A stretch of DNA of 64,000 bases, from contig JAHBSZ010000002.1 of assembly GCA_019638845.1 (NCBI GenBank), positions 186,001 through 250,000 on the forward strand, in the 5' to 3' direction. The first letter of the stretch is position 1. The number at the start of each line of letters is the position of its first letter. Source of the DNA: Salinibacterium sp. (GTDB lineage: Bacteria; Actinomycetota; Actinomycetes; Actinomycetales; Microbacteriaceae). Shown here in pieces: positions 37,979 to 50,477 of this stretch. Made by a program: the position numbers and the translations under genes. The notes under the pieces were generated by a model. It saw only the letters and a program-made list of their open reading frames with translations. It searched no databases and had not been told where the DNA came from.

Positions 37979-39667
37979 TTAGGCGATCCGCGGGGCTAGG
38001 CCGAGCGCTCCTGCACGTCGAGTTCGCCGGATGGCGACGAGCGCGAGCAGCGCGCTACCCACCCCAAAGGCAAGAAGCGTGAGCGCAGAGACCACCACCG
38101 CGCCGGGATCACCTCCGGAGAGGATGCCCTGCATACCGTCGACCGCATAGGTCAGCGGCAGGAACGGGCTCGCGAGCTGGAACGGGGTCGACAGCAGTTG
38201 GATCGGGTAGATCCCACCGGTCGACGTCACCTGCACCGCGAGCAGGAAGAGCGACACCACGAGACCGGCACGACCGAGACCGATCGTGAGCAGGTAGTGG
38301 AACGCGGTGAACGCGAGAGCGATCAGCAGCGAGAATCCGAGAGTCGCCGGCAACAGATTCCATCCCACGCCGAGCGCACCGTGCAGCAGAGCGGTGAGCA
38401 GAAGCGCCTGGCCTCCGGTCACGAGACTGGCACGAGCGAGCGCGGATGCCACGAGCCGACCGTTGCGCGCCGTCGAGGTCAGGGCACGACGGGTGATCGG
38501 ACGCAGCACAAGGAACACCGCGAGCGCACCGACCCACAGACCCAACGGAACGAAGAACGTCGCGACGATCTGCCCGACCTGAGAAACAGGGTTGTCCGTT
38601 GAGACCGAGAGAGTGACAGGGTCGGCCGCGATCTCCGCCGCCGCTGCCGCATTGGTATCCGTCGCGGGAATCTGGTCAGCACCCGACTGAAGCCCCGTGG
38701 CAAGGCCGGTCGCGCCCGACGCGAGCCCGGTGGCACCGTCGACCAAGGAAGGCCCAGTCTGAGCAAGCTGGTACGCGCCGTCGGCGCTCTGTGAGATGCC
38801 TGTCTGCACCCCTGAGATTCCGCTCGCTGCCTGCGAGCTCAAGGTCGATCCCCCAGCAGCGGTCTGTGCGAGGTTGGCAATGGCACCCTCGAGTTGCGCT
38901 TTGACCGTCGGGTCGGTGACGCTCGTCAGATCGAGCGACGACAGATAGGCGGAGAGCTGCGAGACCCCGCCCGTGTACGTCGCAATGCCCGACGTGAGCT
39001 GGCTGAGTCCCGCGGCACCGTCGTCGAGTTGTGCGAGCCCGTAGGAAAGTGACCCCACCCCGTCGGTGTACTGCGTCAACCCTGACGAGAGCTGGGTCGC
39101 GCCGGACGAGAGCTGCGCTGCGCCATCGGCAGCGGACCCGAGGGAGGCACCGAGCTCGCCGAGGCTCGAGTAGATGCCTCCGATGTACTGCGCCGTGATC
39201 GCATTGCCGAACGTATCGGCCATGGTCTGCCCGACGACCTGGGCGACGGAACCGGTCAGGTAGCTGTGCGCGTCATCGGTACGGATCGAGATGTCCGCCT
39301 TTTGGGGCTTGTCGCTGGAGAGCGACAGAATAGAGGTCGAGAAGTTCGAGGGAACGGTCAGAACGGCATAGACGTCACCGGCCTTGAGGGCCGCCGCGGC
39401 ATCCGTGGCGTTGGTGATTGTCCAGTCGAACCCGGTGGAGCCCGTCAGCTCGGTGACCAGTTGGCGGCCCGCGAAGACGTTCTGCTCTGTGCCGTCTGGG
39501 GACGTCACGGTCTGCAGGGTGTCTTCGTTCACTATCGCGACAGGAATCGAGTCGAGTGCCTTGTCGCCTTGGCCGACAGCCCCGACAAAGAGACCCGCGA
39601 AGGCGAGGGGCACGAGTACGACGGCCGCGAGGCCGCCCCACCGCAACCAGGTGGTGCGCTTGCTCAT
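37979..39667 (-). CDS. YhgE/Pip-domain membrane protein
   Basis: A 562-residue protein in the pattern of YhgE/Pip proteins: an N-terminal helix (WGGLAAVVLVPLAFAGLFVG), a long extracytoplasmic domain with repeated SSGATQLSSGLTQYTDGVG-like heptads, and five or six C-terminal helices. The phage-infection-protein and EsaA-like relatives act at the envelope, in the latter case with type VII secretion. Its ATG overlaps the stop of the MMPL gene by four bases, so the two proteins are probably made together and may form one complex. Confidence 0.85.
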   Translation of the reverse strand: MSKRTTWLRWGGLAAVVLVPLAFAGLFVGAVGQGDKALDSIPVAIVNEDTLQTVTSPDGTEQNVFAGRQLVTELTGSTGFDWTITNATDAAAALKAGDVYAVLTVPSNFSTSILSLSSDKPQKADISIRTDDAHSYLTGSVAQVVGQTMADTFGNAITAQYIGGIYSSLGELGASLGSAADGAAQLSSGATQLSSGLTQYTDGVGSLSYGLAQLDDGAAGLSQLTSGIATYTGGVSQLSAYLSSLDLTSVTDPTVKAQLEGAIANLAQTAAGGSTLSSQAASGISGVQTGISQSADGAYQLAQTGPSLVDGATGLASGATGLATGLQSGADQIPATDTNAAAAAEIAADPVTLSVSTDNPVSQVGQIVATFFVPLGLWVGALAVFLVLRPITRRALTSTARNGRLVASALARASLVTGGQALLLTALLHGALGVGWNLLPATLGFSLLIALAFTAFHYLLTIGLGRAGLVVSLFLLAVQVTSTGGIYPIQLLSTPFQLASPFLPLTYAVDGMQGILSGGDPGAVVVSALTLLAFGVGSALLALVAIRRTRRAGALGLAPRIA

Positions 39668-42549
39668 CGGACGAGTCCTTTCGGAGAGAGGGAGTAGAGG
39701 TCGACGGCGACCACCGCCCGGTCCGCGACAGTGTCGTCATGTGCGGGAATCGGTGTGCCGATCACGAGGGTCGTGGTTGCTGGCGCGAGTTTGGCAATGG
39801 CGGCGAGGAATGTCGCCTGTTCCTCGTCACTCGCGAAGGCGTCGAGCTGGTCGAGCATGACGATGGGCGTGCGCTCGGCGAGTGCCACCGTTGCAAGTGC
39901 TACCGCGCGTTCAAGCTGCGGAAGCTCGACGAGGGTGCTCGACGGCGTCACCCGCATTCTGCCGTCACCCAACACGGCGTTCACCCGATCCAGCCAGCGC
40001 CGCGCACTGCGCGCGGTGGTGAAGAAGCGGTACCAAGGTTGGGTCATCTCGATGCGCTCGCTGAGCAATTCGCCGATCGTGACGCTCGTCTCGGTGCGCT
40101 GCGCTCCGCCGACATCCGCGAGGGCAACCAACGCCCGCACGTCCGAGGCCTCAGAAGGCACCGGATGCCCGGCAATCTGCGCCCGCCCCGAGACCGGATC
40201 CAGCCGTCCGGAGAGCGTGGCCGCCACGAGACGGCGGTCGACGGGGTCGCCGCTCGCTATCACGACGGAGCCACGCGCCACGCTGATCGACAGTGGGCCA
40301 ACAGCATGGTCGCGCGATCCCGCAACGAGGTATTCAGTGCTCAGTGCGATGTCGCCCTCAGCCTTCGCCCACTCGACCGCGTGGCGGTGCTCACGCAACT
40401 GCTCCCCCTCGATGTCGACGTTGGGCAACACGCGAGCGAGCCACTTCGGCATCCACCACGCGGCCTTGCCGAACAGGGTCATGAGCGCGGGAACCAGAGT
40501 CATCCGCACCAAGAAGGCATCGAAGGCGATACCGACCGCGAGCCCCAGGGCGATCGGCTTGATCATGCCGCTGCCCTCCGGAACGAAGGCGAAGAACACG
40601 AAGAACATGATGAGCGCCGCCGCCGTGACCACCCGGGCGCCGTTGGCGAAACCGTGCGACACCGAGTACCGCGCATCCCCGGTCTTGACGAACTCTTCGC
40701 GCATGCCGGAAACGAGGAACACCTCGTAGTCCATGGCGAGGCCGAACAACACGGCCATGAGGATGATCGGCATGAAGCTCAGGATCGGTCCGGGATTTTC
40801 GACGCCCAACAGGCTGCCGAGCCATCCCCACTGGAAGATGGCGACAACCACACCGAACGACGCGACGATGGAAAGCAGGAACCCCAGCGCCGCCTTGATC
40901 GGAACGAGAATCGAGCGGAACACTGCAGTGAGCAGCACGATCGACAGCCCGAGCACGATGAGGCCAAACGGGATCAGCGCGTTTGTGAGACGGTTCGAGA
41001 TGTCGATGCCGACCGCGGTGGTGCCGGTCACGGAGATCGGGGTGTCGTACTTCTTCGCGATCGACGGTGCAAGGTCACGGATGGCCTGCACGAGCTCTTT
41101 TGTCTGCACCGAGTCGGGTGCACTCTTCGGCGTGACTTGGATGATCGCGGTGTCGAGCCCGGCATCGGGGAACCCTTGGGACACGTAGGCAACATCGTCG
41201 AGACCGCGGAGTTGGGTCGCGATTGCGGCGAGGTCTTCTTGAATCGCAATGGTCTGGGTGATGTCGATGGCCACGACGAGTGGCCCGTTGTAGCCGGGGC
41301 CAAAACCTTCCGTGACGAGGTCATACGCCTCGCGCTGAGTGGAACCCTGAGGCTGCGACCCACCATCGGGCAGGTTGAGATCGAGGCTTAGCGCTGGAAT
41401 CGCGAGGGTTCCCAGAATGGCAACCACACCGAGGCTCGCGAGCACCGGGCGTTTCATGACGCCCTTCACCCAACGGATGCCCATCGACTTCTGCTCACCC
41501 TTCTCGGCGGCGACGGCACGCTTCCACGCCCGAGAACCCTCCTTCGGCACGAGCCTGCCCTTGGCGAGGCCGAGCAACGCCGGTAGCAGGGTCGTCGCGA
41601 CACCGATCGCGATCAACACGGCAACGGCGGCTCCCACCCCCATGACGCTCAGGAATGGAATACCGACGACCAGGAGTCCGAGCAACGCGATGATGACGGT
41701 AAGCCCCGCGAACACCACAGCACTACCTGCAGTGCCCACAGCCATGGCCGCGGACTCTTGGGGATCTTCTCCGCGCGCGAGTTGCGATCGATGTCTCGAC
41801 AGGATGAACAGGGCATAGTCGATGCCGACTGCGAGTCCGATCATGAGCGCGAGCAGCGGCGCCGAACTCGACACCGTGGTGAACGCGGAGAGCGCCGTGA
41901 TGGCACCCATCACGATGCCGACGCCCAGGAGTGCGCTCAGAAGCGGCATCCCGGCCGCAAGCAACGATCCGAAGGTGATGACGAGCACCACGCCCGCGAA
42001 GACAACGCCAAAGACTTCGGTGATCGTGATGGCAACTGTGGTGTCCTGGAACACTTGCCCGCCAAACTCGACGCGAAGACCAGCTTTCTCGCCGATGGCG
42101 GCGGTGGCTTTGAGATCCGCGACGGTCTGGTCTGTGACATCCGCAGAAGGACCATCAAATTGCACCCGGATGATCGCCATGGTCGTGTCGGCGCTCACTG
42201 CGTTGCCCGCGTACTCGTCGAACGGACCCACCACCGAGTCGACACCGGGCACGCCCTTGATGGCCGTGACGAGATCGGAAATCGCGGCCTTCTCGTCGTC
42301 AACGGATGCCCCACTCGGTGCTACCACGACGGCAGTCGCGCTTGCGCCCGCAACGGAAGGGAACACTGCCTCGAGCCGATCGAGCGCCGCCTGCGACTCC
42401 GTGCCCGGAATCGCGAACGACTCCTGGCTCTGACCACCGAGAGCGATGCCGCCGCCAAGAGTGGCCACGAGTAGGAGCAGCCACACTCCGATAACGCGCC
42501 AAGAGCGACGGTAGGAGAAGCGGCCAAGACGATAGAGCAGTGTTGCCAT
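39664..42549 (-). CDS. MMPL-family transporter with C-terminal degenerate ABC-ATPase-like domain
   Basis: A 961-residue protein. Residues about 1-705 are an RND/MMPL transporter: 12 helices in two halves, each after a large extracytoplasmic loop, with GIDYALFILSRHRSQL (about 240) and AMDYEVFLVSGMREEF (about 605) as the proton-relay motifs. Residues about 735-961 resemble an ABC ATPase (PLSISVARGSVVIASGD, SGRLDPVSGRAQIAGH, PIVMLDQLDAF as Walker B-like), but the Walker A GKS and the LSGGQ signature are lost. A regulatory or structural domain is inferred. It lies between a TetR regulator and YhgE/Pip. Confidence 0.88.
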   Translation of the reverse strand: MATLLYRLGRFSYRRSWRVIGVWLLLLVATLGGGIALGGQSQESFAIPGTESQAALDRLEAVFPSVAGASATAVVVAPSGASVDDEKAAISDLVTAIKGVPGVDSVVGPFDEYAGNAVSADTTMAIIRVQFDGPSADVTDQTVADLKATAAIGEKAGLRVEFGGQVFQDTTVAITITEVFGVVFAGVVLVITFGSLLAAGMPLLSALLGVGIVMGAITALSAFTTVSSSAPLLALMIGLAVGIDYALFILSRHRSQLARGEDPQESAAMAVGTAGSAVVFAGLTVIIALLGLLVVGIPFLSVMGVGAAVAVLIAIGVATTLLPALLGLAKGRLVPKEGSRAWKRAVAAEKGEQKSMGIRWVKGVMKRPVLASLGVVAILGTLAIPALSLDLNLPDGGSQPQGSTQREAYDLVTEGFGPGYNGPLVVAIDITQTIAIQEDLAAIATQLRGLDDVAYVSQGFPDAGLDTAIIQVTPKSAPDSVQTKELVQAIRDLAPSIAKKYDTPISVTGTTAVGIDISNRLTNALIPFGLIVLGLSIVLLTAVFRSILVPIKAALGFLLSIVASFGVVVAIFQWGWLGSLLGVENPGPILSFMPIILMAVLFGLAMDYEVFLVSGMREEFVKTGDARYSVSHGFANGARVVTAAALIMFFVFFAFVPEGSGMIKPIALGLAVGIAFDAFLVRMTLVPALMTLFGKAAWWMPKWLARVLPNVDIEGEQLREHRHAVEWAKAEGDIALSTEYLVAGSRDHAVGPLSISVARGSVVIASGDPVDRRLVAATLSGRLDPVSGRAQIAGHPVPSEASDVRALVALADVGGAQRTETSVTIGELLSERIEMTQPWYRFFTTARSARRWLDRVNAVLGDGRMRVTPSSTLVELPQLERAVALATVALAERTPIVMLDQLDAFASDEEQATFLAAIAKLAPATTTLVIGTPIPAHDDTVADRAVVAVDLYSLSPKGLVR

Positions 42550-42552
42550 TGT

Positions 42553-43125
42553 TTACCCCAGGGCGGTTGTGGCGGATACGGGTGCGAGCAGGTCGCTCAG
42601 GATGGTGATGAGAACGGCCCTGGTCTCATCGAGGGTTCCGGGCTCCTCAGGGAGCCCGAAGGTCTGGACGGTGCACAGCATGTAGGCCGCCCCGCCGAGA
42701 GCGATGCCGAATCGCATCTTCTCTTCGAGGGAATCCGAGTTCGCGGAGAAGAATCCCGCGAGCCTGCGCACGAGCGCGTTGGCGCGCTCGATGACCGGGA
42801 CGTCGACCAGCGACGGCCCTTGATTGATGAACATGTTGACTTCGAGGCGGTACTGCAGCAGGAAGTCGACGAAAGCCTCGAGAAACGCGGTGCGGTCGCC
42901 CTCGAGCAGGCCGGCACCCTCAAGGGGCGCGAGTACATCCTGCATGCGATCGATGGCAGGGCCGATAGCGGCCTCGAGCAGATGCTCCTTCGAGGCGAAG
43001 TGGTAGAGCACGCTCGACTTGGAGACTCCGGCGAGCTCGGCGATGCGCTGCAAGGAGGTCGCCCCGTACCCGGCCGCCGCGAATTCGGCGAGCGCGATGG
43101 TGCGGAGTTCTTCCTGAGTGGACAT
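42553..43125 (-). CDS. TetR-family regulator of the MMPL/YhgE operon
   Basis: A 190-residue repressor. The helix-turn-helix is at about 24-50 (TSLQRIAELAGVSKSSVLYHF), followed by ASKEHLLEAAI. It lies three bases upstream of the MMPL gene on the same strand and is the first gene of a three-gene operon. Two operator-like palindromes lie 16 to 48 bases upstream of its start, so autoregulation of the whole operon is likely. The inducer is unknown; lipophilic drugs or envelope lipids would fit the target genes. Confidence 0.9.
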   Translation of the reverse strand: MSTQEELRTIALAEFAAAGYGATSLQRIAELAGVSKSSVLYHFASKEHLLEAAIGPAIDRMQDVLAPLEGAGLLEGDRTAFLEAFVDFLLQYRLEVNMFINQGPSLVDVPVIERANALVRRLAGFFSANSDSLEEKMRFGIALGGAAYMLCTVQTFGLPEEPGTLDETRAVLITILSDLLAPVSATTALG

Positions 43126-43447: not shown

Positions 43448-43723
43448 ATGTACGACAACGGCCCTTACGGACTCCACATTGTGGGACTAGCCGCCTCGGC
43501 GCTCGGCACACTCGTGCTCGTGATCGTCGCGATCGGGCTCATCGTCCTGCTCGTGCGCTTCCTTCTTGTGGCGACCACTGCCGCAAAACTGTATGTCGCG
43601 AAGAACTCGCCAGCGCAGCCCACGACGGCCCCGGTCGCCGCCGCACCCGCTCCGGCAGCCGCCACGACCAAGCCGACAACCACGACCAAGCCGCGCACGC
43701 CAAAGGCTCCGCCCGCTAGCTGA
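43448..43723 (+). CDS. small membrane protein with Ala/Pro/Thr-rich tail
   Basis: A 91-residue protein. One helix (about 10-40, LGTLVLVIVAIGLIVLLVRFLL) is followed by a tail of alanine, proline, threonine and lysine (TTKPTTTTKPRTPKAPP) that looks like a flexible or wall-spanning segment. Coupled to the previous small gene by a two-base gap. Its last eight bases overlap the convergent FadR-type gene. Function unknown. Confidence 0.6.
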   Translation: MYDNGPYGLHIVGLAASALGTLVLVIVAIGLIVLLVRFLLVATTAAKLYVAKNSPAQPTTAPVAAAPAPAAATTKPTTTTKPRTPKAPPAS

Positions 43724-44426
43724 GGAAGCCGCGCAGCAACGCCGCCGACCCGGCGAGATGCTCGGTCATCGCGGACGCCGCCCGTTCCGCATTCCCCGTC
43801 AGGATGGCGACCACGATCGCCTCGTGCTGCTCGTTGGAATGCTCGATGTTGCGCTCGAGGAGCGGGATGTCGTCGAGAAGTCGATTGACGCGCGTGCGGT
43901 TGTCGGCCAGCAATGACACGAGGGACGGGGTGCCCACGAGTTCGCCGATCGACAGGTGCAGCCGGGAGTCATGGCGGCGGTAGTCGGCGGGCGAGGCCGT
44001 CGCGGTCTCCTTGAGTCGGGTCCAGAGCAGCTCACGTTCCGATGCCGAGAGCTCCCGGGCCGCCGCCGCGCGGGCCGCGCCCACCTCGAGGATGTCCCGG
44101 AGCCCGAGAACGTCTTCGATCTCCGCTGCCGTCGGCGCCGCAGCATCCGGACCGACCGGCGTGTGCGGAATCGTGGCGCTCACGAAGGTGCCGCCATACC
44201 GTCCCCGCCGGGCGACAAGATAGCCGGCGTCGCTCAGCGACCGGATGGCGTCACGCACGGTGTCGCGACTCACCGAGAATCGCACCGCGAGATCGCGCTC
44301 CGGCGGGAGCGCCTCCCCTGGTTGCACGATGCCGAGCCGGATGGTCTGGAGGAGGCGCGCGACCGTGTCCTCGAACGCATTCCCGTTGCGAACCGGACCG
44401 AACAGTACCTCCCCCGCGTCAGTCAT
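43716..44426 (-). CDS. FadR/GntR-family transcriptional regulator
   Basis: A 236-residue regulator. The N-terminal GntR winged helix reads LPPERDLAVRFSVSRDTVRDAIRSLSDAGYL, followed by a GRYGGTFV wing. The C-terminal 130 residues are an all-helical FCD domain with ligand histidines (YRRHDSRLH, NEQHEAI), a metal/organic acid sensor. It is the last gene of the minus-strand amine catabolism set, four bases after the SDR start side, and is the likely regulator of it. Confidence 0.88.
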   Translation of the reverse strand: MTDAGEVLFGPVRNGNAFEDTVARLLQTIRLGIVQPGEALPPERDLAVRFSVSRDTVRDAIRSLSDAGYLVARRGRYGGTFVSATIPHTPVGPDAAAPTAAEIEDVLGLRDILEVGAARAAAARELSASERELLWTRLKETATASPADYRRHDSRLHLSIGELVGTPSLVSLLADNRTRVNRLLDDIPLLERNIEHSNEQHEAIVVAILTGNAERAASAMTEHLAGSAALLRGFLS

Positions 44427-44430
44427 GGAA

Positions 44431-45219
44431 TCAGAGGGGGGTCACATAGGCCGAGCTGATACCGCCGTCGACGAGGAACGTCGAGGCGGTGATGAACGAC
44501 GCGTCATCACTAGCGAGGAATGCGACGGCCGCCGCAAGTTCTTCGGGCTCTGCGAACCGTCCCTTCGGAATGTGCACGAGGCGACGCTGAGCGCGCTCCG
44601 GGTCTTTCGCGAAGAGCTCCTGCAGCAACGGGGTGTTCACCGGGCCAGGGCACAGTGCGTTGACCCGGATGCCCTGCCGCGCGAACTGCACGCCGAGCTC
44701 CTTCGTCATCGCGAGCACGCCGCCCTTCGACGCGGTATAGGAGATCTGCGACGTCGCCGACCCCATCACGGCGACGAACGACGCGGTGTTGATGATCGAC
44801 CCGGACTGCTGGGCAACCATGTGCCGCAGGGCCGCGCGCGAGCAGAGGTAGACACTCTTGAGGTTGACGTCCTGCACACGATCCCACGCCGGCAGCTCCG
44901 TCGTCTCGATGGAGTCGTCCTCAGGCGGCGAGATTCCCGCATTGTTGAAGGCGATGTCCACCGAACCGTAGGTCGACTTGGCGGTGTCGAACAGGTTGTT
45001 GACCTGGGCTTCGTCGGTGACATCCACCTTGACGAACAAGCCTCCAACCTCGGCCGCGGCGGCCTCTCCGGTCTCGGCGTTGAAGTCACCGATGACAACG
45101 GTCGCGCCCTCGGCAGCGAAACGCTTGGCCGTCGCAAAACCGATTCCGCTTGCGCCGCCCGTGATGACGGCGACCTTCCCGGCGAGGCGCTGGGTGAGGT
45201 CGATCTTGGTGATTGCCAT
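44431..45219 (-). CDS. SDR oxidoreductase of the gamma-glutamyl amine cluster
   Basis: A 262-residue classical SDR with TGGASGIGFATAKRF as the NAD-binding loop, IAFNNAG, the catalytic serine in NTASFVAV and YTASK. AAAGGA lies eight bases before the ATG at 45219. It is in the same direction as the ligase, hydrolase and aldehyde dehydrogenase genes. If the cluster handles ethanolamine, this enzyme would oxidise the terminal alcohol of gamma-glutamylethanolamide to the aldehyde, a step that the putrescine pathway does with the flavoenzyme PuuB. That role is inferred from context. Confidence 0.85.
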   Translation of the reverse strand: MAITKIDLTQRLAGKVAVITGGASGIGFATAKRFAAEGATVVIGDFNAETGEAAAAEVGGLFVKVDVTDEAQVNNLFDTAKSTYGSVDIAFNNAGISPPEDDSIETTELPAWDRVQDVNLKSVYLCSRAALRHMVAQQSGSIINTASFVAVMGSATSQISYTASKGGVLAMTKELGVQFARQGIRVNALCPGPVNTPLLQELFAKDPERAQRRLVHIPKGRFAEPEELAAAVAFLASDDASFITASTFLVDGGISSAYVTPL

Positions 45220-45285
45220 GCGTGTTCCTTTCGCGGGTCGAGCTAGCGGAGACCTCGGCATGAGATCTCGACGAGCTCTCTCCGC

Positions 45286-46647
45286 CTAGTCGGTGCTGAT
45301 GAAGACGTTCTTGGTTTCCGTGAATGCTGAAGCTGCGTCGGGGCCCAACTCACGGCCGAGGCCGCTCTGCTTGAACCCACCGAAGGGCGTCGAATACCGC
45401 ACGCTCGAATGGGAGTTGACCGAGAGGTTGCCGCTGTCGATCCCGCGCGCGACCCGGATGGCCCGGCCCACGTCGCGCGTCCAGATCGAGCCGCTCAGTC
45501 CGTAGATACTCGAGTTCGCGAGGGCGATCCCGTCCGCTTCGTCGTCGAACGGGAGCACTGTCACGACCGGCCCGAAGATCTCCTCCGTTACGCGACGGTC
45601 GTCGCGACTCTTCGGCAGCACGACGGTGGGCGCGAACCAGTACCCCGGCCCGGTCGGGGCCGTCCCGCGGAATGCGACATCCGCATCATCCGGCTGGAAG
45701 GCAGTCACGGAGTCGAAGTGCGCCTTCGAGACGAGCGGACCCATCTCGGTCGCCTCGTGGGTCGGGTCGCCGACGACGACCCCCTTCACTGCTGGCTCGA
45801 GAAGATGCAGGAACTTTTCCAAGACACTCCGCTCTACGAGGATCCGCGAGCGCGCACAGCAATCTTGTCCTGCGTTTTCGAACACCGCGTAGGGGGCGGA
45901 TGCGGCCGCCTTCTCAAGGTCGGCGTCGGCGAACACGACGTTCGCACTCTTGCCGCCGAGCTCGAGAGTGACCGCTTTGACCTGTGCCGCGCATCCGGCC
46001 ATAACCTGCTTGCCGACCTCGGTCGAGCCGGTGAAGACAATTTTGCGCACGTTCTCGTGGGTGACGAATCGCTCACCGACCACCGACCCCTTGCCGGGAA
46101 GCACTTGGAACAAGCCGTCGGGCAGTCCCGCTTCGAGCGCGAGTTCGCCGAGTCGGATGGCCGTGAGCGGCGTCCACTCCGCGGGCTTGAGCACAACCGC
46201 GTTGCCCGCCGCGAGAGCAGGGGCGAATCCCCAGCTCGCGATGGTCATCGGGAAGTTCCACGGAACGATGATGCCCACGACCCCGAGCGGTTCGAGGAAG
46301 GTAATGTCGAGCCCGCCAGCGACGGGAATCTGGCTGCCGATCATCCGTTCGGGTGCCGCCGCGTAGTAGTTGAGCACGTCGCGGACATGGCCAGCTTCCC
46401 AACGAGCCTGACTGACCGGATGCCCGGAGTTGACGACCTCGAGAAGTGCGAGTTCTTCGATCGCACCCCCGACCGCGGTGGCGAAATCGCGAAGCGCACC
46501 CGCCCGGGCCGCTGGCGCGAGCGCTGACCAAGCCTTCTGCGCCACCAAGGCGCGAGCGACAGCATCGTCAACGCCGTCTAGCGTGGTCTGCTCTACCGTG
46601 CGGAATTCCGCTCCGGTCGCCGGGTTGATGAGGGCGGTGCTAGCCAT
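45286..46647 (-). CDS. aldehyde dehydrogenase (PuuC-like)
   Basis: A 453-residue NAD(P)-dependent dehydrogenase. It has VPWNFPMTIASWGFAPALAAG, the FTGSTEVGK nucleotide loop, the general base in LELGGKSANV, the catalytic cysteine in NAGQDCCARSR and the EEIFGPVV motif. ATG 46647 has GAGGAG upstream and overlaps the PuuD-like gene by eight bases. It should oxidise the gamma-glutamyl aminoaldehyde to the acid. Specificity is inferred from the cluster. Confidence 0.9.
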   Translation of the reverse strand: MASTALINPATGAEFRTVEQTTLDGVDDAVARALVAQKAWSALAPAARAGALRDFATAVGGAIEELALLEVVNSGHPVSQARWEAGHVRDVLNYYAAAPERMIGSQIPVAGGLDITFLEPLGVVGIIVPWNFPMTIASWGFAPALAAGNAVVLKPAEWTPLTAIRLGELALEAGLPDGLFQVLPGKGSVVGERFVTHENVRKIVFTGSTEVGKQVMAGCAAQVKAVTLELGGKSANVVFADADLEKAAASAPYAVFENAGQDCCARSRILVERSVLEKFLHLLEPAVKGVVVGDPTHEATEMGPLVSKAHFDSVTAFQPDDADVAFRGTAPTGPGYWFAPTVVLPKSRDDRRVTEEIFGPVVTVLPFDDEADGIALANSSIYGLSGSIWTRDVGRAIRVARGIDSGNLSVNSHSSVRYSTPFGGFKQSGLGRELGPDAASAFTETKNVFISTD

Positions 46648-47410
46648 TCCTGCTCCTCGACGCGTGGTAGTCGGCCGCAGCACTGACGACTCCCGCGAAC
46701 AGGCGGGCGTCACTGGCGGCGCCCTCCTCTGGATGCCACTGCACGGCAACCCCGAACGGCAGCGCGGGCATCTCGACGGCTTGGATTGTGCCGTCATCGC
46801 TTCGAGCGGACACGACGAGCCCGGGCGCGACTTCGTCGATCGCCTGGTGGTGATGGCTCTTGATTTCGACGGTCTTGTCGCCAGCGAAGAGGCTGCCCAG
46901 CGTGGTGTCGGGCTCGATTCCGGCCTCGTTGTCGCTGAAGTACCCGAGCCGCTCCCGATAGCGATCCGAGCCGAGCGTGTCCGGCAGGTGTTGGGTGAGC
47001 GTGCCGCCGAGTGCGACGTTGAGCATTTGAGCTCCTCGGCAGATCCCAAGGAACGGCATCTCCCTTTCGATCGCCGCCGTCAGGAGGGCGTCCTCCCACG
47101 CGTCACGATCGAGCCGAGGTTCGTCGGTGTCGGGGTGCCGCTCCTGCCCGTAGCGCGCCGGATCGACATCCTTGCCACCGGTGATGATCAGTCCGTCCAA
47201 CGAATCGAGCACACTGTTGGCGATCGTGCTGTCGACAGGCTGGGGTGGGAGCAATATCGCTATGCCACCGGCGTTGGTGACCGCGTCGAAGTACACCTGT
47301 GGCAGGAAGGAGGCGGGCACGTCCCACGCCCCCGTCTGTGCCTGTTCCAGATAGGTGGTCAGACCGATGAGTGGTCGCCTTGCTGATGTATCAGAACCGC
47401 TCAAAACCAC
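46640..47410 (-). CDS. gamma-glutamyl-amide hydrolase, class I amidotransferase (PuuD-like)
   Basis: A 256-residue class I glutamine amidotransferase-like hydrolase with the Cys-His-Glu triad: Cys124 in GICRGAQML, and His226 and Glu228 in VQWHPEE. In E. coli, PuuD frees GABA from gamma-glutamyl-GABA. Here it would release glutamate and the oxidised amine (glycine if the substrate is ethanolamine). GTG start; the ligase gene overlaps its start by 20 bases and the aldehyde dehydrogenase overlaps its end by eight. Confidence 0.9.
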   Translation of the reverse strand: MVLSGSDTSARRPLIGLTTYLEQAQTGAWDVPASFLPQVYFDAVTNAGGIAILLPPQPVDSTIANSVLDSLDGLIITGGKDVDPARYGQERHPDTDEPRLDRDAWEDALLTAAIEREMPFLGICRGAQMLNVALGGTLTQHLPDTLGSDRYRERLGYFSDNEAGIEPDTTLGSLFAGDKTVEIKSHHHQAIDEVAPGLVVSARSDDGTIQAVEMPALPFGVAVQWHPEEGAASDARLFAGVVSAAADYHASRSRNG

Positions 47411-48773
47411 GAACCCGCTCCCAATCGGTAATTGCCGCGTCGAATGCGGCCTGCTCTACGCGCGCATTGTTGAGATAGTGCGCAACTACATCTTCGCCGA
47501 AAGCCTGGCTGGCGACCTCGGAACCGGCAAACAGCTCGGTGGCCTCCCGCAGTGACGACGGAACACGCGGAGCGTCAGACGCGTAGGCGTTCCCTTCGAA
47601 GATCGGCTCGAGTTCGAGTTCGTGCTCGATGCCGTAGAGGCCTCCCGCGATGAGGGCCGCGACCGCGAGGTACTGGTTCACGTCACCACCGGGCACCCGG
47701 TTTTCGACACGCAACGAACGACCGTGGCCGACCACACGGAGGGCGCACGTGCGGTTGTCGAGTCCCCACGCGACGGCGGTGGGAGCGAAACTTCCCTCGA
47801 CGTAGCGCTTGTAGGAGTTGATGTTGGGAGCGAAGAACAGCGTCAGCTCACGGAGGGTAGCCAGTTGACCGGCGATCCAGTGCTCCATGAGTTTCGAGAA
47901 TCCGTACTTGCCGTTCTTGTCGGCCATAACGGGATCACCGCCCTTGCCCACCACAGACAAGTGGATGTGGCACGAGTTGCCCTCGCGCTCGTTGAACTTC
48001 GCCATGAAGGTGAGCGACTTGCCGTGGGCATCCGCGATCTCTTTTGCGCCGTTCTTGTAGATCGAGTGGTTGTCGCACGTCGCGAGCGCATCGGTGTACC
48101 GGAAGGCGATCTCCTGCTGGCCAAGGTTGCATTCACCCTTGACGCCCTCGCTGTACATTCCCGCGCCGTCCATGCTGTTGCGGATGTCGCGCAACAGCGG
48201 CTCCATACGAGTCGACGCCATCAGGGCGTAGTCGATGTTGTAGTCGCTCGCGGGCGTCAGGCCCTCGTACTTCTTCTTCCACGCCTCGCGATAGCTGTCG
48301 TCGAAGACGATGAACTCAAGCTCCGTACCGACAAACGGCTGCAGGCCCTTCTCGGCGAGGCGCGCGATTTGACGCTTGAGTACCTGGCGGGGATCGGGGG
48401 CGACGGGCGTTTCGTCAAGCCACGTGAGGTCTGCGGTCACCATCGCCGTACCGGGCAGCCACGGCGTGAGGCGCAGCGTGTCTAGGTCTGGGATCATCGC
48501 CATGTCGCCATAGCCGCGCTCCCAGGAGGAGATCGCATAGCCGTCAACTGTGTTCATCTCGACGTCAACCGCGAGGAGGTAGTTGCAACACTCGGCGCCG
48601 TGCTCCGCGAGCTCCTCGAGGAATAGTCGAGCCGATGCCCGCTTGCCGACAAGACGACCCTGCATGTCCGTGAACGCGATGATGACGGTGTCGATCTCGT
48701 GGGAAGCGACCAGGGCGGTCAGCTCCTGAACGGTGAGATTCCCGGTCTTCTGCGTGGTGCTCGCGTGTGCCAA
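47391..48773 (-). CDS. glutamine synthetase-like gamma-glutamylamine ligase
   Basis: A 460-residue member of the GlnA fold: an N-terminal beta-grasp domain, then LEFIVFD with the first metal glutamate, NSCHIHLSV, RVVGHGRSLRVENRVPGGDVN and a C-terminal helix bundle. It fits the PuuA/GlnA3/GlnA4 group rather than housekeeping synthetase and lacks an adenylylation loop of NLYDLP type. TTG start with AGGAGG six bases upstream. Likely attaches glutamate to ethanolamine or another amine. It is divergent from the permease at 48948. Confidence 0.88.
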   Translation of the reverse strand: MAHASTTQKTGNLTVQELTALVASHEIDTVIIAFTDMQGRLVGKRASARLFLEELAEHGAECCNYLLAVDVEMNTVDGYAISSWERGYGDMAMIPDLDTLRLTPWLPGTAMVTADLTWLDETPVAPDPRQVLKRQIARLAEKGLQPFVGTELEFIVFDDSYREAWKKKYEGLTPASDYNIDYALMASTRMEPLLRDIRNSMDGAGMYSEGVKGECNLGQQEIAFRYTDALATCDNHSIYKNGAKEIADAHGKSLTFMAKFNEREGNSCHIHLSVVGKGGDPVMADKNGKYGFSKLMEHWIAGQLATLRELTLFFAPNINSYKRYVEGSFAPTAVAWGLDNRTCALRVVGHGRSLRVENRVPGGDVNQYLAVAALIAGGLYGIEHELELEPIFEGNAYASDAPRVPSSLREATELFAGSEVASQAFGEDVVAHYLNNARVEQAAFDAAITDWERVRGFERF

Positions 48774-48947
48774 CTAGCTCCTCCTTGAGTGTTCTGCCGA
48801 CCATTACATCACGCGAGAGTCGCGATTAGCTGGGAAGTCGTAACGCGCAATTTACATCTAAAGGTAGACAACAAGTACCAATAGCCGACAAACTCATGTG
48901 AATTCCGCAGGCGATGGTGCCTGCGTCCGATGTCTCATGGAGGACAA
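48774..48947. promoter_or_regulatory. divergent promoter region of the amine cluster
   Basis: 174 bases between the TTG of the ligase and the ATG of the permease, with an AT-rich centre (48840-48900). GGTAGACAA (48863-48871) resembles half of a FadR-type GntR site (T.GT..AC.A form) but is not a full palindrome. No other clear operator is seen. Confidence 0.35.
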
Positions 48948-50477
48948 ATGGCGGAATCAAAGGGCACGAGCGTGTCCGGCGTTAGGTACACCAAGGCCGA
49001 GGCTGGTTACTTCGAAAAACGGAGCCTCAAACGCACGGCTGGAATCTGGGGCCTCTGGGGCCTCGGCATCGCCGCGGTTATCTCGGGCGACTTCTCAGGC
49101 TGGAACTTCGGTCTCGATTTCGCAGGCTGGGGCGGAATGCTCATCGCATTCCTCATCGTCGTCGTCATGTACTTCGGCATGCTGTTCTCCATCGGTGAGA
49201 TGGCGGCAGCCCAACCACACACAGGTGGGGCTTACTCGTTCGCACGCGCGGCGATGGGGCCGTGGGGCGGTTTCGTCACCGGCCTAGCCGAGACGATCGA
49301 GTACGTCGCGACCACTGGTGTGATCGTGTACTTCTCCGCGTCCTACGCCGACGGAGTCACCTCGGCGCTGTTCGGCTTCAGCATGCCCGGCTGGATCTGG
49401 TGGATCATCCTGTATGCGATCTTCATCCTTCTGAACTCTGCGGGAGCTTCGATTTCGTTCAAGTTCGCCCTCGTGGTGGCCTTGGTCTCGATCGCGATTC
49501 TGGGATTGTTCTTCATCATGTCGCTGGCGTCCGGACAGTTCTCGTTCGACAAGCTGTTCGACATCGCGCCCGACGCCGGCCAGACCGCATTCCTGCCTCA
49601 CGGTTTCGGTGCGATCCTGTTCGCGCTGCCGTTCGCTATGTGGTTCTTCCTCGGGATTGAGGAGCTTCCGCTCGCTGCGGAGGAGTCGACCAACCCGGCA
49701 AAGGACATCCCCAAGGCCGGAATCACCGGCATGGTCACGCTCGTCGTGCTCGGCATCCTGGTGCTCGTGCTCAACCCGGGTGTCACCGGATCCGCTGCAC
49801 TCGCCACCTCGGGCGAGCCGTTGCTCGATGGCTTCCGGGCCTTCCTGCCTGACACGGTGGCCGCGCTGCTTGCTGCATTCGCGCTGCTCGGTCTGCTGGC
49901 ATCCCTGCAGGGAATCATGTTCGCCTACGGGCGCAACATGTACTCGCTGTCACGCGCCGGTTACTACCCGAAGTTCCTGTCCCTGACGGGCAAGCGTCAA
50001 ACCCCGTGGGTCGCGCTTCTGGTGGGTGGTGTGATCGGGTTCGCCGCTCTCCTGCTCGTCGACTTCGGTGGAGCCGTCGCCGGACCGATCGTGTTGAACA
50101 TCGCGGTCTGGGGTGCGGTCATCGCGTACGCCCTGCAGATGGTCTCGTTCATCATTCTGCGCAAGAAGTTCCCGACCGCGAAGCGGCCCTACCTCAGCCC
50201 CACCGGCATCCCCGGTGCGGTCGTCGCAGGTCTCATCGCGGTGTTGATCTTCGTCGGGTTCATCCTGCAGGAAGCGTTCCGTCCTGCGATCATCGCGATC
50301 GCGGTCGTCTACGTCGTGATGCTCGCCCTGTTCGCCCTGTTCGGTCGCACCAAGCTCGTGCTCTCCCCGGAGGAGGAGTACGCGCTCAGCGGCGGAATGC
50401 ACGGCGACCCACAGGCCGAAGGCTATGACGCAATGGAGGGCGAAGTCTTTGGTTCGGACGGGTCCAAGAAGAAGTAG
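48948..50477 (+). CDS. APC-family permease, ethanolamine permease type
   Basis: A 509-residue transporter with 12 or more helices. The N-terminus YTKAEAGYFEKRSLKRTAGIWG and the stretch VISGDFSGWNFGLDFAGWGG match, as I recall, proteins named ethanolamine permease, and AAEESTNPAKDIPKAGI is the conserved cytoplasmic loop. ATG 48948 is chosen because TGGAGG lies just upstream; the frame opens six codons earlier. It is divergent from the gamma-glutamylamine ligase, so uptake and first reaction are controlled together. A terminator follows. Confidence 0.85.
   Translation: MAESKGTSVSGVRYTKAEAGYFEKRSLKRTAGIWGLWGLGIAAVISGDFSGWNFGLDFAGWGGMLIAFLIVVVMYFGMLFSIGEMAAAQPHTGGAYSFARAAMGPWGGFVTGLAETIEYVATTGVIVYFSASYADGVTSALFGFSMPGWIWWIILYAIFILLNSAGASISFKFALVVALVSIAILGLFFIMSLASGQFSFDKLFDIAPDAGQTAFLPHGFGAILFALPFAMWFFLGIEELPLAAEESTNPAKDIPKAGITGMVTLVVLGILVLVLNPGVTGSAALATSGEPLLDGFRAFLPDTVAALLAAFALLGLLASLQGIMFAYGRNMYSLSRAGYYPKFLSLTGKRQTPWVALLVGGVIGFAALLLVDFGGAVAGPIVLNIAVWGAVIAYALQMVSFIILRKKFPTAKRPYLSPTGIPGAVVAGLIAVLIFVGFILQEAFRPAIIAIAVVYVVMLALFALFGRTKLVLSPEEEYALSGGMHGDPQAEGYDAMEGEVFGSDGSKKK

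Follow-up and report, generated by a model that had tools for sequence, protein, structure and literature searches.

The window analysed here is a 64,000-nucleotide stretch of a Salinibacterium genome (contig 6, positions 186001-250000; the assembly totals 2.96 Mb in 13 contigs and is 98.5% complete). Its positions 43716-50477 hold six intact open reading frames (ORFs) that together resemble a gamma-glutamyl pathway for an amine, most probably ethanolamine. The ORF list and Pfam matches bear out the six-gene cluster with overlapping genes that an earlier note had described here: a glutamine synthetase (GS)-like ligase, a hydrolase of the C26 peptidase family, an aldehyde dehydrogenase (ALDH), a short-chain dehydrogenase/reductase (SDR) and a GntR-type regulator, followed in the other direction by a permease (Table 1). 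The ligase and hydrolase coordinates overlap by 20 bases and those of the hydrolase and ALDH by 8, while 66 bases separate the ALDH from the SDR start and 4 the SDR from the regulator; the permease runs divergently, 156 bases from the ligase start.

Table 1. Features of the gamma-glutamyl cluster and its flanks, in window coordinates.
Feature	Position	Strand	Basis and remarks
GntR/FadR-type (FCD) regulator	43716-44426	-	Pfam GntR and FCD; at the epuRI position of Streptomyces-type clusters
SDR, proposed gamma-glutamylethanolamide dehydrogenase	44431-45219	-	Likely ATG start at 45219; Pfam adh_short_C2
ALDH, proposed gamma-glutamylacetaldehyde dehydrogenase	45286-46647	-	Pfam Aldedh
PuuD-like hydrolase, proposed gamma-glutamylglycine amidohydrolase	46640-47410	-	GTG start; Pfam Peptidase_C26, 219.3 bits
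GlnA4-type ligase, proposed gamma-glutamylethanolamide synthetase	47391-48773	-	TTG start; Pfam Gln-synt_C; tree, GlnA4 residues, solved relatives
Candidate operator dyad AAAGGT-N11-ACCAAT	48860-48882	.	Between ligase and permease
APC permease, divergent TIGR00908 relative	48930-50477	+	Pfam AA_permease; TIGR00908 below cut-off

All four enzymes retain their catalytic residues, which are invariant among the aligned relatives: E151, E153, E214, H269 and H271 of the ligase in 80 of 80 sequences, C124, H226 and E228 of the hydrolase in 75 of 75, the catalytic Cys and Glu motifs of the ALDH in 73 of 73, and the NNAG motif and the Y and K of YTASK in the SDR in 71 of 71. The SDR also matches NF004713 well above its cut-off (498.9 bits vs 404), and its nearest solved chain is 4wec (456 bits), presumably from Mycobacterium smegmatis. 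An Asp after strand beta-2, as seen in this SDR, is a sign of nicotinamide adenine dinucleotide (NAD) use, and the enzyme thus probably uses NAD rather than its phosphate (NADP).

The ligase provides the most direct link to a particular substrate. In a tree of 48 ligases (one GlnA sequence of this genome was left out, and the outgroup drew a long-branch warning), it falls in a clade of 27 with support of 100/99, together with sequences from Streptomyces, Kitasatospora, Nocardia, Amycolatopsis, Nonomuraea, Kribbella, Arthrobacter and Mycobacterium. A wider group of 40 (also 100/99) takes in the Paracoccus and Ruegeria ligases and several further sequences; IpuC and this genome's own paralogue fall outside it. 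The solved relatives of the ligase are 11zs (426.7 bits) and 5dm3 (407.5 bits), the latter from what we take to be Chromohalobacter salexigens. In Streptomyces loci from named organisms, the counterparts of the ligase are about 64-66% identical to it, and those of the SDR about 71-77%.

We also compared individual residues, seeking the 17 GlnA4 positions given in PMC6529630 (this and the other papers are cited here from excerpts of their texts) in 20 Streptomycetaceae-type loci and allowing each sequence a single free offset. Eighteen of these matched at 9 or 10 positions and two (L132 and L149) at 15. The window ligase matches at 9 of the 17, and at 9 of the 12 that precede a loop of variable length; its misses there are D69, D81 and V189 (a leucine in the window), and the Streptomyces-type sequences likewise miss D81 in 20 of 20 cases and D69 in 19 of 20. 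The five positions after the loop are shifted out of register by its length: read off the alignment three places on, R323, F329, R346, E357 and R359 of the window ligase are of the published residue kinds. The unusual E269-G270 pair of GlnA4 is also present, as E264-G265. On these sequence comparisons, we regard the ligase as orthologous to GlnA4.

The cluster type itself has been described before. PMC6529630 (2019) lists the same genes for five Streptomyces species in the legend to its Fig. 2, reports for S. coelicolor GlnA4 a Km of 0.47 mM for ethanolamine and for the mutant a growth defect on ethanolamine, and already proposes the SDR, ALDH and hydrolase steps that lead to glutamate plus glycine; the scheme is restated in the review PMC9397018. 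In these excerpts, the SDR version of the steps is based on bioinformatic and transcriptional evidence. The SDR step and the full operon, which the earlier note had considered the newer part, are thus both in print, and because the gene set and its steps are already given in the excerpts of PMC6529630, the pathway is known and the window operon is a further example of it rather than a new one. For SDR-type ethanolamine glutamylation in Microbacteriaceae, our literature search found nothing beyond that paper.

Like the window, S. coelicolor SCO1610-SCO1615 with EpuRI, as described in PMC6529630, comprises an SDR, an ALDH, GlnA4, a regulator and a glutamine amidotransferase, and the Streptomyces cluster type also shares with the window the ethanolamine transporter gene kind and the proposed chemistry. 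The promoter regions of the Streptomyces-type loci share the window's dyad, discussed below. The arrangement differs: in the window, the order ligase-C26-ALDH-SDR-regulator runs in one direction and the permease diverges from it, whereas in the Streptomyces type ligase-ALDH-SDR runs away from the regulator, the permease (where present) and the C26 gene. Since the S. coelicolor cluster, unlike the window's, is described as having no permease (PMC6529630), the permease does not define the GlnA4-type pathway; the permease of S. pristinaespiralis is reported to have improved growth of S. coelicolor M145 on ethanolamine. Judged by the similarity of its proteins, the window set is orthologous to the Streptomyces glnA4 cluster and adds one more actinobacterial family, and this orthology supports both the ethanolamine substrate and the order of steps that had been suggested for the locus.

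The gene set is well conserved. Of 197 genomes searched within the phylum, 59 have the ligase (E <= 1e-60), and in all 20 regions hand-picked from these matches as close relatives (55-72% identity) it is accompanied by relatives of the SDR, the ALDH and the C26 hydrolase; of 18 regions around remoter ligase relatives (33-52% identity), only 2 (L055 and L065) have all four genes. In a second set, drawn from the best 80 loci listed from named organisms, 62 had at least 5 kb of flank on both sides, and in 58 of these the four genes are kept together (the exceptions are L121, L127, L141 and L142), with a regulator relative in 50 and a permease relative in 32. Given that the three partners stay beside the ligase in 20 of 20 and 58 of 62 loci, the set is not a chance assembly. 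The SDR is the best-conserved member in the loci nearest to the window's (96% in L075), and the best ligase relative among the matches listed from named organisms is that of Salinibacterium sp. G-O1 (85%). The regulator has relatives of 46-51% identity in five Streptomyces-type loci (L042, L045, L048, L049 and L054) and of 51-80% identity in those Microbacteriaceae loci from named organisms where it is present. Within the family, the ligase occurs in 126 of 299 sampled genomes and 49 of 78 genera (E <= 1e-120); one genome of the same genus as the window, G374, gave no match at this threshold.

Proteobacteria carry a different version of the route. Their ethanolamine operon has been described in Phaeobacter MED193 and Chromohalobacter salexigens (PMC10132767), which we compare by publication; the genes compared here directly are those of Paracoccus and Ruegeria, and the Paracoccus denitrificans plasmid has the gene order of the Phaeobacter/C. 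salexigens operon. This version shares with the window a related ligase (about 50% identical in Paracoccus, 43% in Ruegeria), an ALDH and the same proposed intermediates. However, where the window has an SDR and a C26 hydrolase, Paracoccus and Ruegeria have an iron alcohol dehydrogenase (PF00465) and an N-formylglutamate amidohydrolase (PF05013), and a TRAP transporter appears in Paracoccus and, by the published excerpts, in Phaeobacter. Two of the four steps are thus filled by unrelated enzyme families in the two versions. Table 2 of PMC9397018 gives SCO1611 and SCO1615 as orthologues of the C. salexigens PF00465 and PF05013 proteins; in the loci scanned here, however, the actinobacterial SDR and C26 proteins and their proteobacterial replacements belong to unrelated families.

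Between the ligase and the permease lies a candidate operator. Short exact palindromes did not exceed shuffled sequences in the promoter regions, but a gapped dyad, WWWGGT-N-ACCWWW with spacers of 8-13, was seen by eye in eight promoter sequences and then tested on the rest. Among 32 ligase/permease promoter regions (the window and the 31 loci, out of 82, with a divergent permease adjoining the ligase), it is exact in 23 and within one mismatch in 27, against dinucleotide shuffle means of 0.07 and 1.29; for the 24 unseen when the pattern was written, the counts are 17 and 20. A fresh set of 28 ligase/regulator promoters, almost all Streptomyces-type, gave 25 exact matches, and all 28 match if one mismatch is allowed (shuffles average 0.02 and 0.25). 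Since the loci are related, part of this conservation is due to common descent.

The window copy is the only dyad with an N11 spacer in the window (0.01 expected) and in the 2.96-Mb genome; with an N10 spacer there is none in the window and there are two elsewhere in the genome (C6:146554-146575 and C7:456564-456585). In 30 family genomes scanned for the N11 form, 15 with and 15 without the ligase and the places compared by hand, an exact dyad lies just upstream of the ligase in 10 of the 15 ligase-bearing genomes. Of the 14 further sites away from the ligase, 7 belong to 4 of the 15 genomes that lack it, and as a reversed control pattern gives 29 sites across the same 30 genomes, the N11 pattern is at background away from the cluster. 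In 12 other ligase-bearing genomes, an exact N10 dyad lies at the ligase in 9; these genomes have 18 N10 sites in total, 11 within the cluster and 7 outside it (reversed control, 19). Across 102 cluster loci (1.62 Mb, including the promoter-set loci), 57 loci hold 72 exact dyads; when a site is assigned to a gene whose match starts within 400 bases downstream, the ligase receives 37 of them, the permease 24, and the regulator and the C26 gene 4 each, which leaves 3 elsewhere. In one locus whose permease is distant from the ligase (L089), the dyad stands in front of the permease there too.

In S. coelicolor, EpuRI represses glnA4 (PMC6529630), and the promoters of glnA4 and epuRI are two of the eight to which it binds (PMC8998196). 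An EpuRI-like regulator relative is present in the window, and the dyad is shared with the Streptomyces-type loci; we infer that the dyad may be the operator of an EpuRI-like regulator. The main texts searched, including those of PMC6529630 and PMC8998196, gave no EpuRI operator sequence; supplements lay outside the search. The dyad provides a candidate control-site sequence for an ethanolamine regulator, and this shared DNA site, the divergent type of the window permease and the prevalence of the pathway in one more bacterial family are what the analysis adds. The dyad could also serve to find displaced permeases and further members of the regulon, such as an Arthrobacter plasmid amidase.

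That amidase gene is on a conjugative plasmid of Arthrobacter sp. U41, where one of the three dyads found elsewhere separates it from a GntR gene. The plasmid bears a copy of the ligase-C26-ALDH-SDR operon (L155:3615-11281); upstream of it are the GntR gene, the amidase and an inositol-monophosphatase-family gene, with a choline-kinase-family gene further up. As the position of this dyad hints, the regulon may also include functions that release ethanolamine from amides or phospholipid headgroups.

With a probability of roughly 0.88, we read the cluster as the actinobacterial version of the gamma-glutamyl ethanolamine route and as orthologous to the Streptomyces glnA4 cluster. This reading is supported by the ligase clade, the GlnA4 residues, the conserved gene set and the intact catalytic residues, as well as by sister permeases that pass the family cut-off, the shared dyad and the absence of an EutB match in the genome. 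If the window proteins act like their Streptomyces counterparts, as seems probable, the permease would import ethanolamine and the ligase would couple it to glutamate using ATP; the SDR would oxidise the alcohol and the ALDH the resulting aldehyde, after which the C26 hydrolase would cleave gamma-glutamylglycine into glutamate and glycine, returning the glutamate. The glycine could go into the glycine cleavage system, whose P-protein is encoded in the genome. The GntR-type regulator would repress both the ligase operon and the permease through the dyad between them.

Several points weigh against this reading. The activities of the window proteins are predicted throughout, and S. coelicolor GlnA4 (SCO1613) is absent from the compared sequences, so that the link to it runs via Streptomyces relatives, gene order and the published numbering. 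The window ligase passes no NCBIfam cut-off. The permease scores 350.8 bits against TIGR00908 (E 1.1e-104), under the cut-off of 381.75, and is about 40% identical to the Streptomyces permease type. Finally, ipuC-annotated clusters combine the same enzyme kinds: besides a GS-like ligase and a C26-type hydrolase they have an SDR and an ALDH, the latter 50-52% identical to that of the window. Gene content by itself therefore does not determine the substrate.

The permease had been described as ethanolamine-type, and this stands in part: TIGR00908 is its nearest family, and it is the top match to this family in the genome (351.1 bits in the genome-wide scan), but it falls short of the cut-off. 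Five sister-cluster permeases clear it at 480-538 bits, including those of Streptomyces gardneri, Actinophytocola xanthii and Arthrobacter silvisoli. The window permease is of a distinct subtype, which recurs at 61-76% identity in Microbacteriaceae, Nocardioides and some Mycobacterium loci; permeases of the other type are about 38-45% identical to it. From its sequence, the ethanolamine-type permease is the weakest assignment in the cluster and the one point where the substrate could differ. We think it improbable that in this family the same enzymes and control site, paired with the divergent permease, handle primary amino alcohols other than ethanolamine or a broader range of them (alaninol, for instance, would yield glutamate and alanine), and likewise improbable that the main substrate is another one, such as alaninol, serinol or 3-aminopropanol. 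The contrast between the window permease and its five sisters is what speaks for the latter. Against it stand the identities of the ligase and SDR to the Streptomyces loci given above, the dyad and regulator type shared with those loci, and the occurrence of both permease kinds in clusters of the same order (67% identity to the window permease in L088, 41% in L092).

A putrescine pathway of the Puu type, with its amine oxidase elsewhere in the genome, is very unlikely. The Puu pathway of E. coli shares with the window its ligase, ALDH and C26 hydrolase classes, and the solved relatives of the window hydrolase are indeed PuuD-type (6vtv). However, the three shared proteins score far below the Puu cut-offs of NCBIfam (177.1 of 650 bits for the ligase, 344.8 of 850 for the ALDH and 108.5 of 266 for the hydrolase), and an SDR would have no role in the putrescine route. 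According to excerpts of PMC6529630 and PMC8998196, the specificity of GlnA4 is for ethanolamine, and an S. coelicolor mutant in glnA4 grows on polyamines. No oxidase dependent on flavin adenine dinucleotide (FAD), and hence no PuuB, was found among the cluster genes, as the earlier note had stated. The Puu pathway requires this oxidase. In favour of the Puu reading, there are FAD oxidases elsewhere in the genome: of its 23 matches to the DAO family, two are proteins of about PuuB size (447 and 494 amino acids), which score highest with TIGR03329, far under its cut-off. One lies on contig 1 (about 216-221 kb, L176:5218-9999), where the neighbours, read from translations, are an aminotransferase, a small regulator and an ALDH; judged by these proteins, the region reads like a putrescine transamination cluster. 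The second is located on contig 6, some 0.4 Mb away from the cluster. Neither is near the gamma-glutamyl genes, and no exact dyad, N11 or N10, was found at either in the genome-wide scan, so a PuuB gene elsewhere under common control, which had been named as evidence against the ethanolamine route, appears to find no support here.

An alkylamine route of the IpuC kind, in which isopropylamine is converted to alaninol, is equally hard to credit. It draws on the ipuC-annotated clusters of Paenarthrobacter aurescens TC1, which like the window hold a GS-like ligase (36-37% identical to the window's), an SDR, a C26-type hydrolase and an ALDH; these clusters, unlike the window's genes, also have a cytochrome P450, a ferredoxin and a reductase, the window ligase lies outside the IpuC branch, and the window permease is nearest to the ethanolamine family. 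The B12-dependent Eut pathway was rejected: a search for EutB gave a match in the E. coli control genome but none in this one.

Ethanolamine ammonia-lyase, which the earlier note had described as unnecessary for this route, is rare in the family as well: EutB was found in 1 of the 299 sampled genomes, which leaves out the B12 route as an alternative here. These counts suggest that the B12-free, compartment-free route is the usual one for ethanolamine in Microbacteriaceae. The sole EutB carrier, G351 (listed contamination 5%), also has the ligase with a dyad beside it, and two ethanolamine routes may coexist there.

The genome's own ligase paralogue (L073; contig 1, 372597-389556) is a GS-like protein of 448 amino acids with 32% identity to the window ligase. 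Its neighbours are a divergent glutamine amidotransferase-type gene, an ALDH, an APC permease and, as read from the translation, an AsnC-like regulator, and it perhaps belongs to another gamma-glutamyl amine route. Beside the cluster in the window, positions 39664-42549 of the minus strand encode a 961-amino acid MMPL-like membrane transporter with an extra C-terminal ABC ATPase-like domain, and a TetR-like gene (42553-43125) adjoins it, both as read from their translations.

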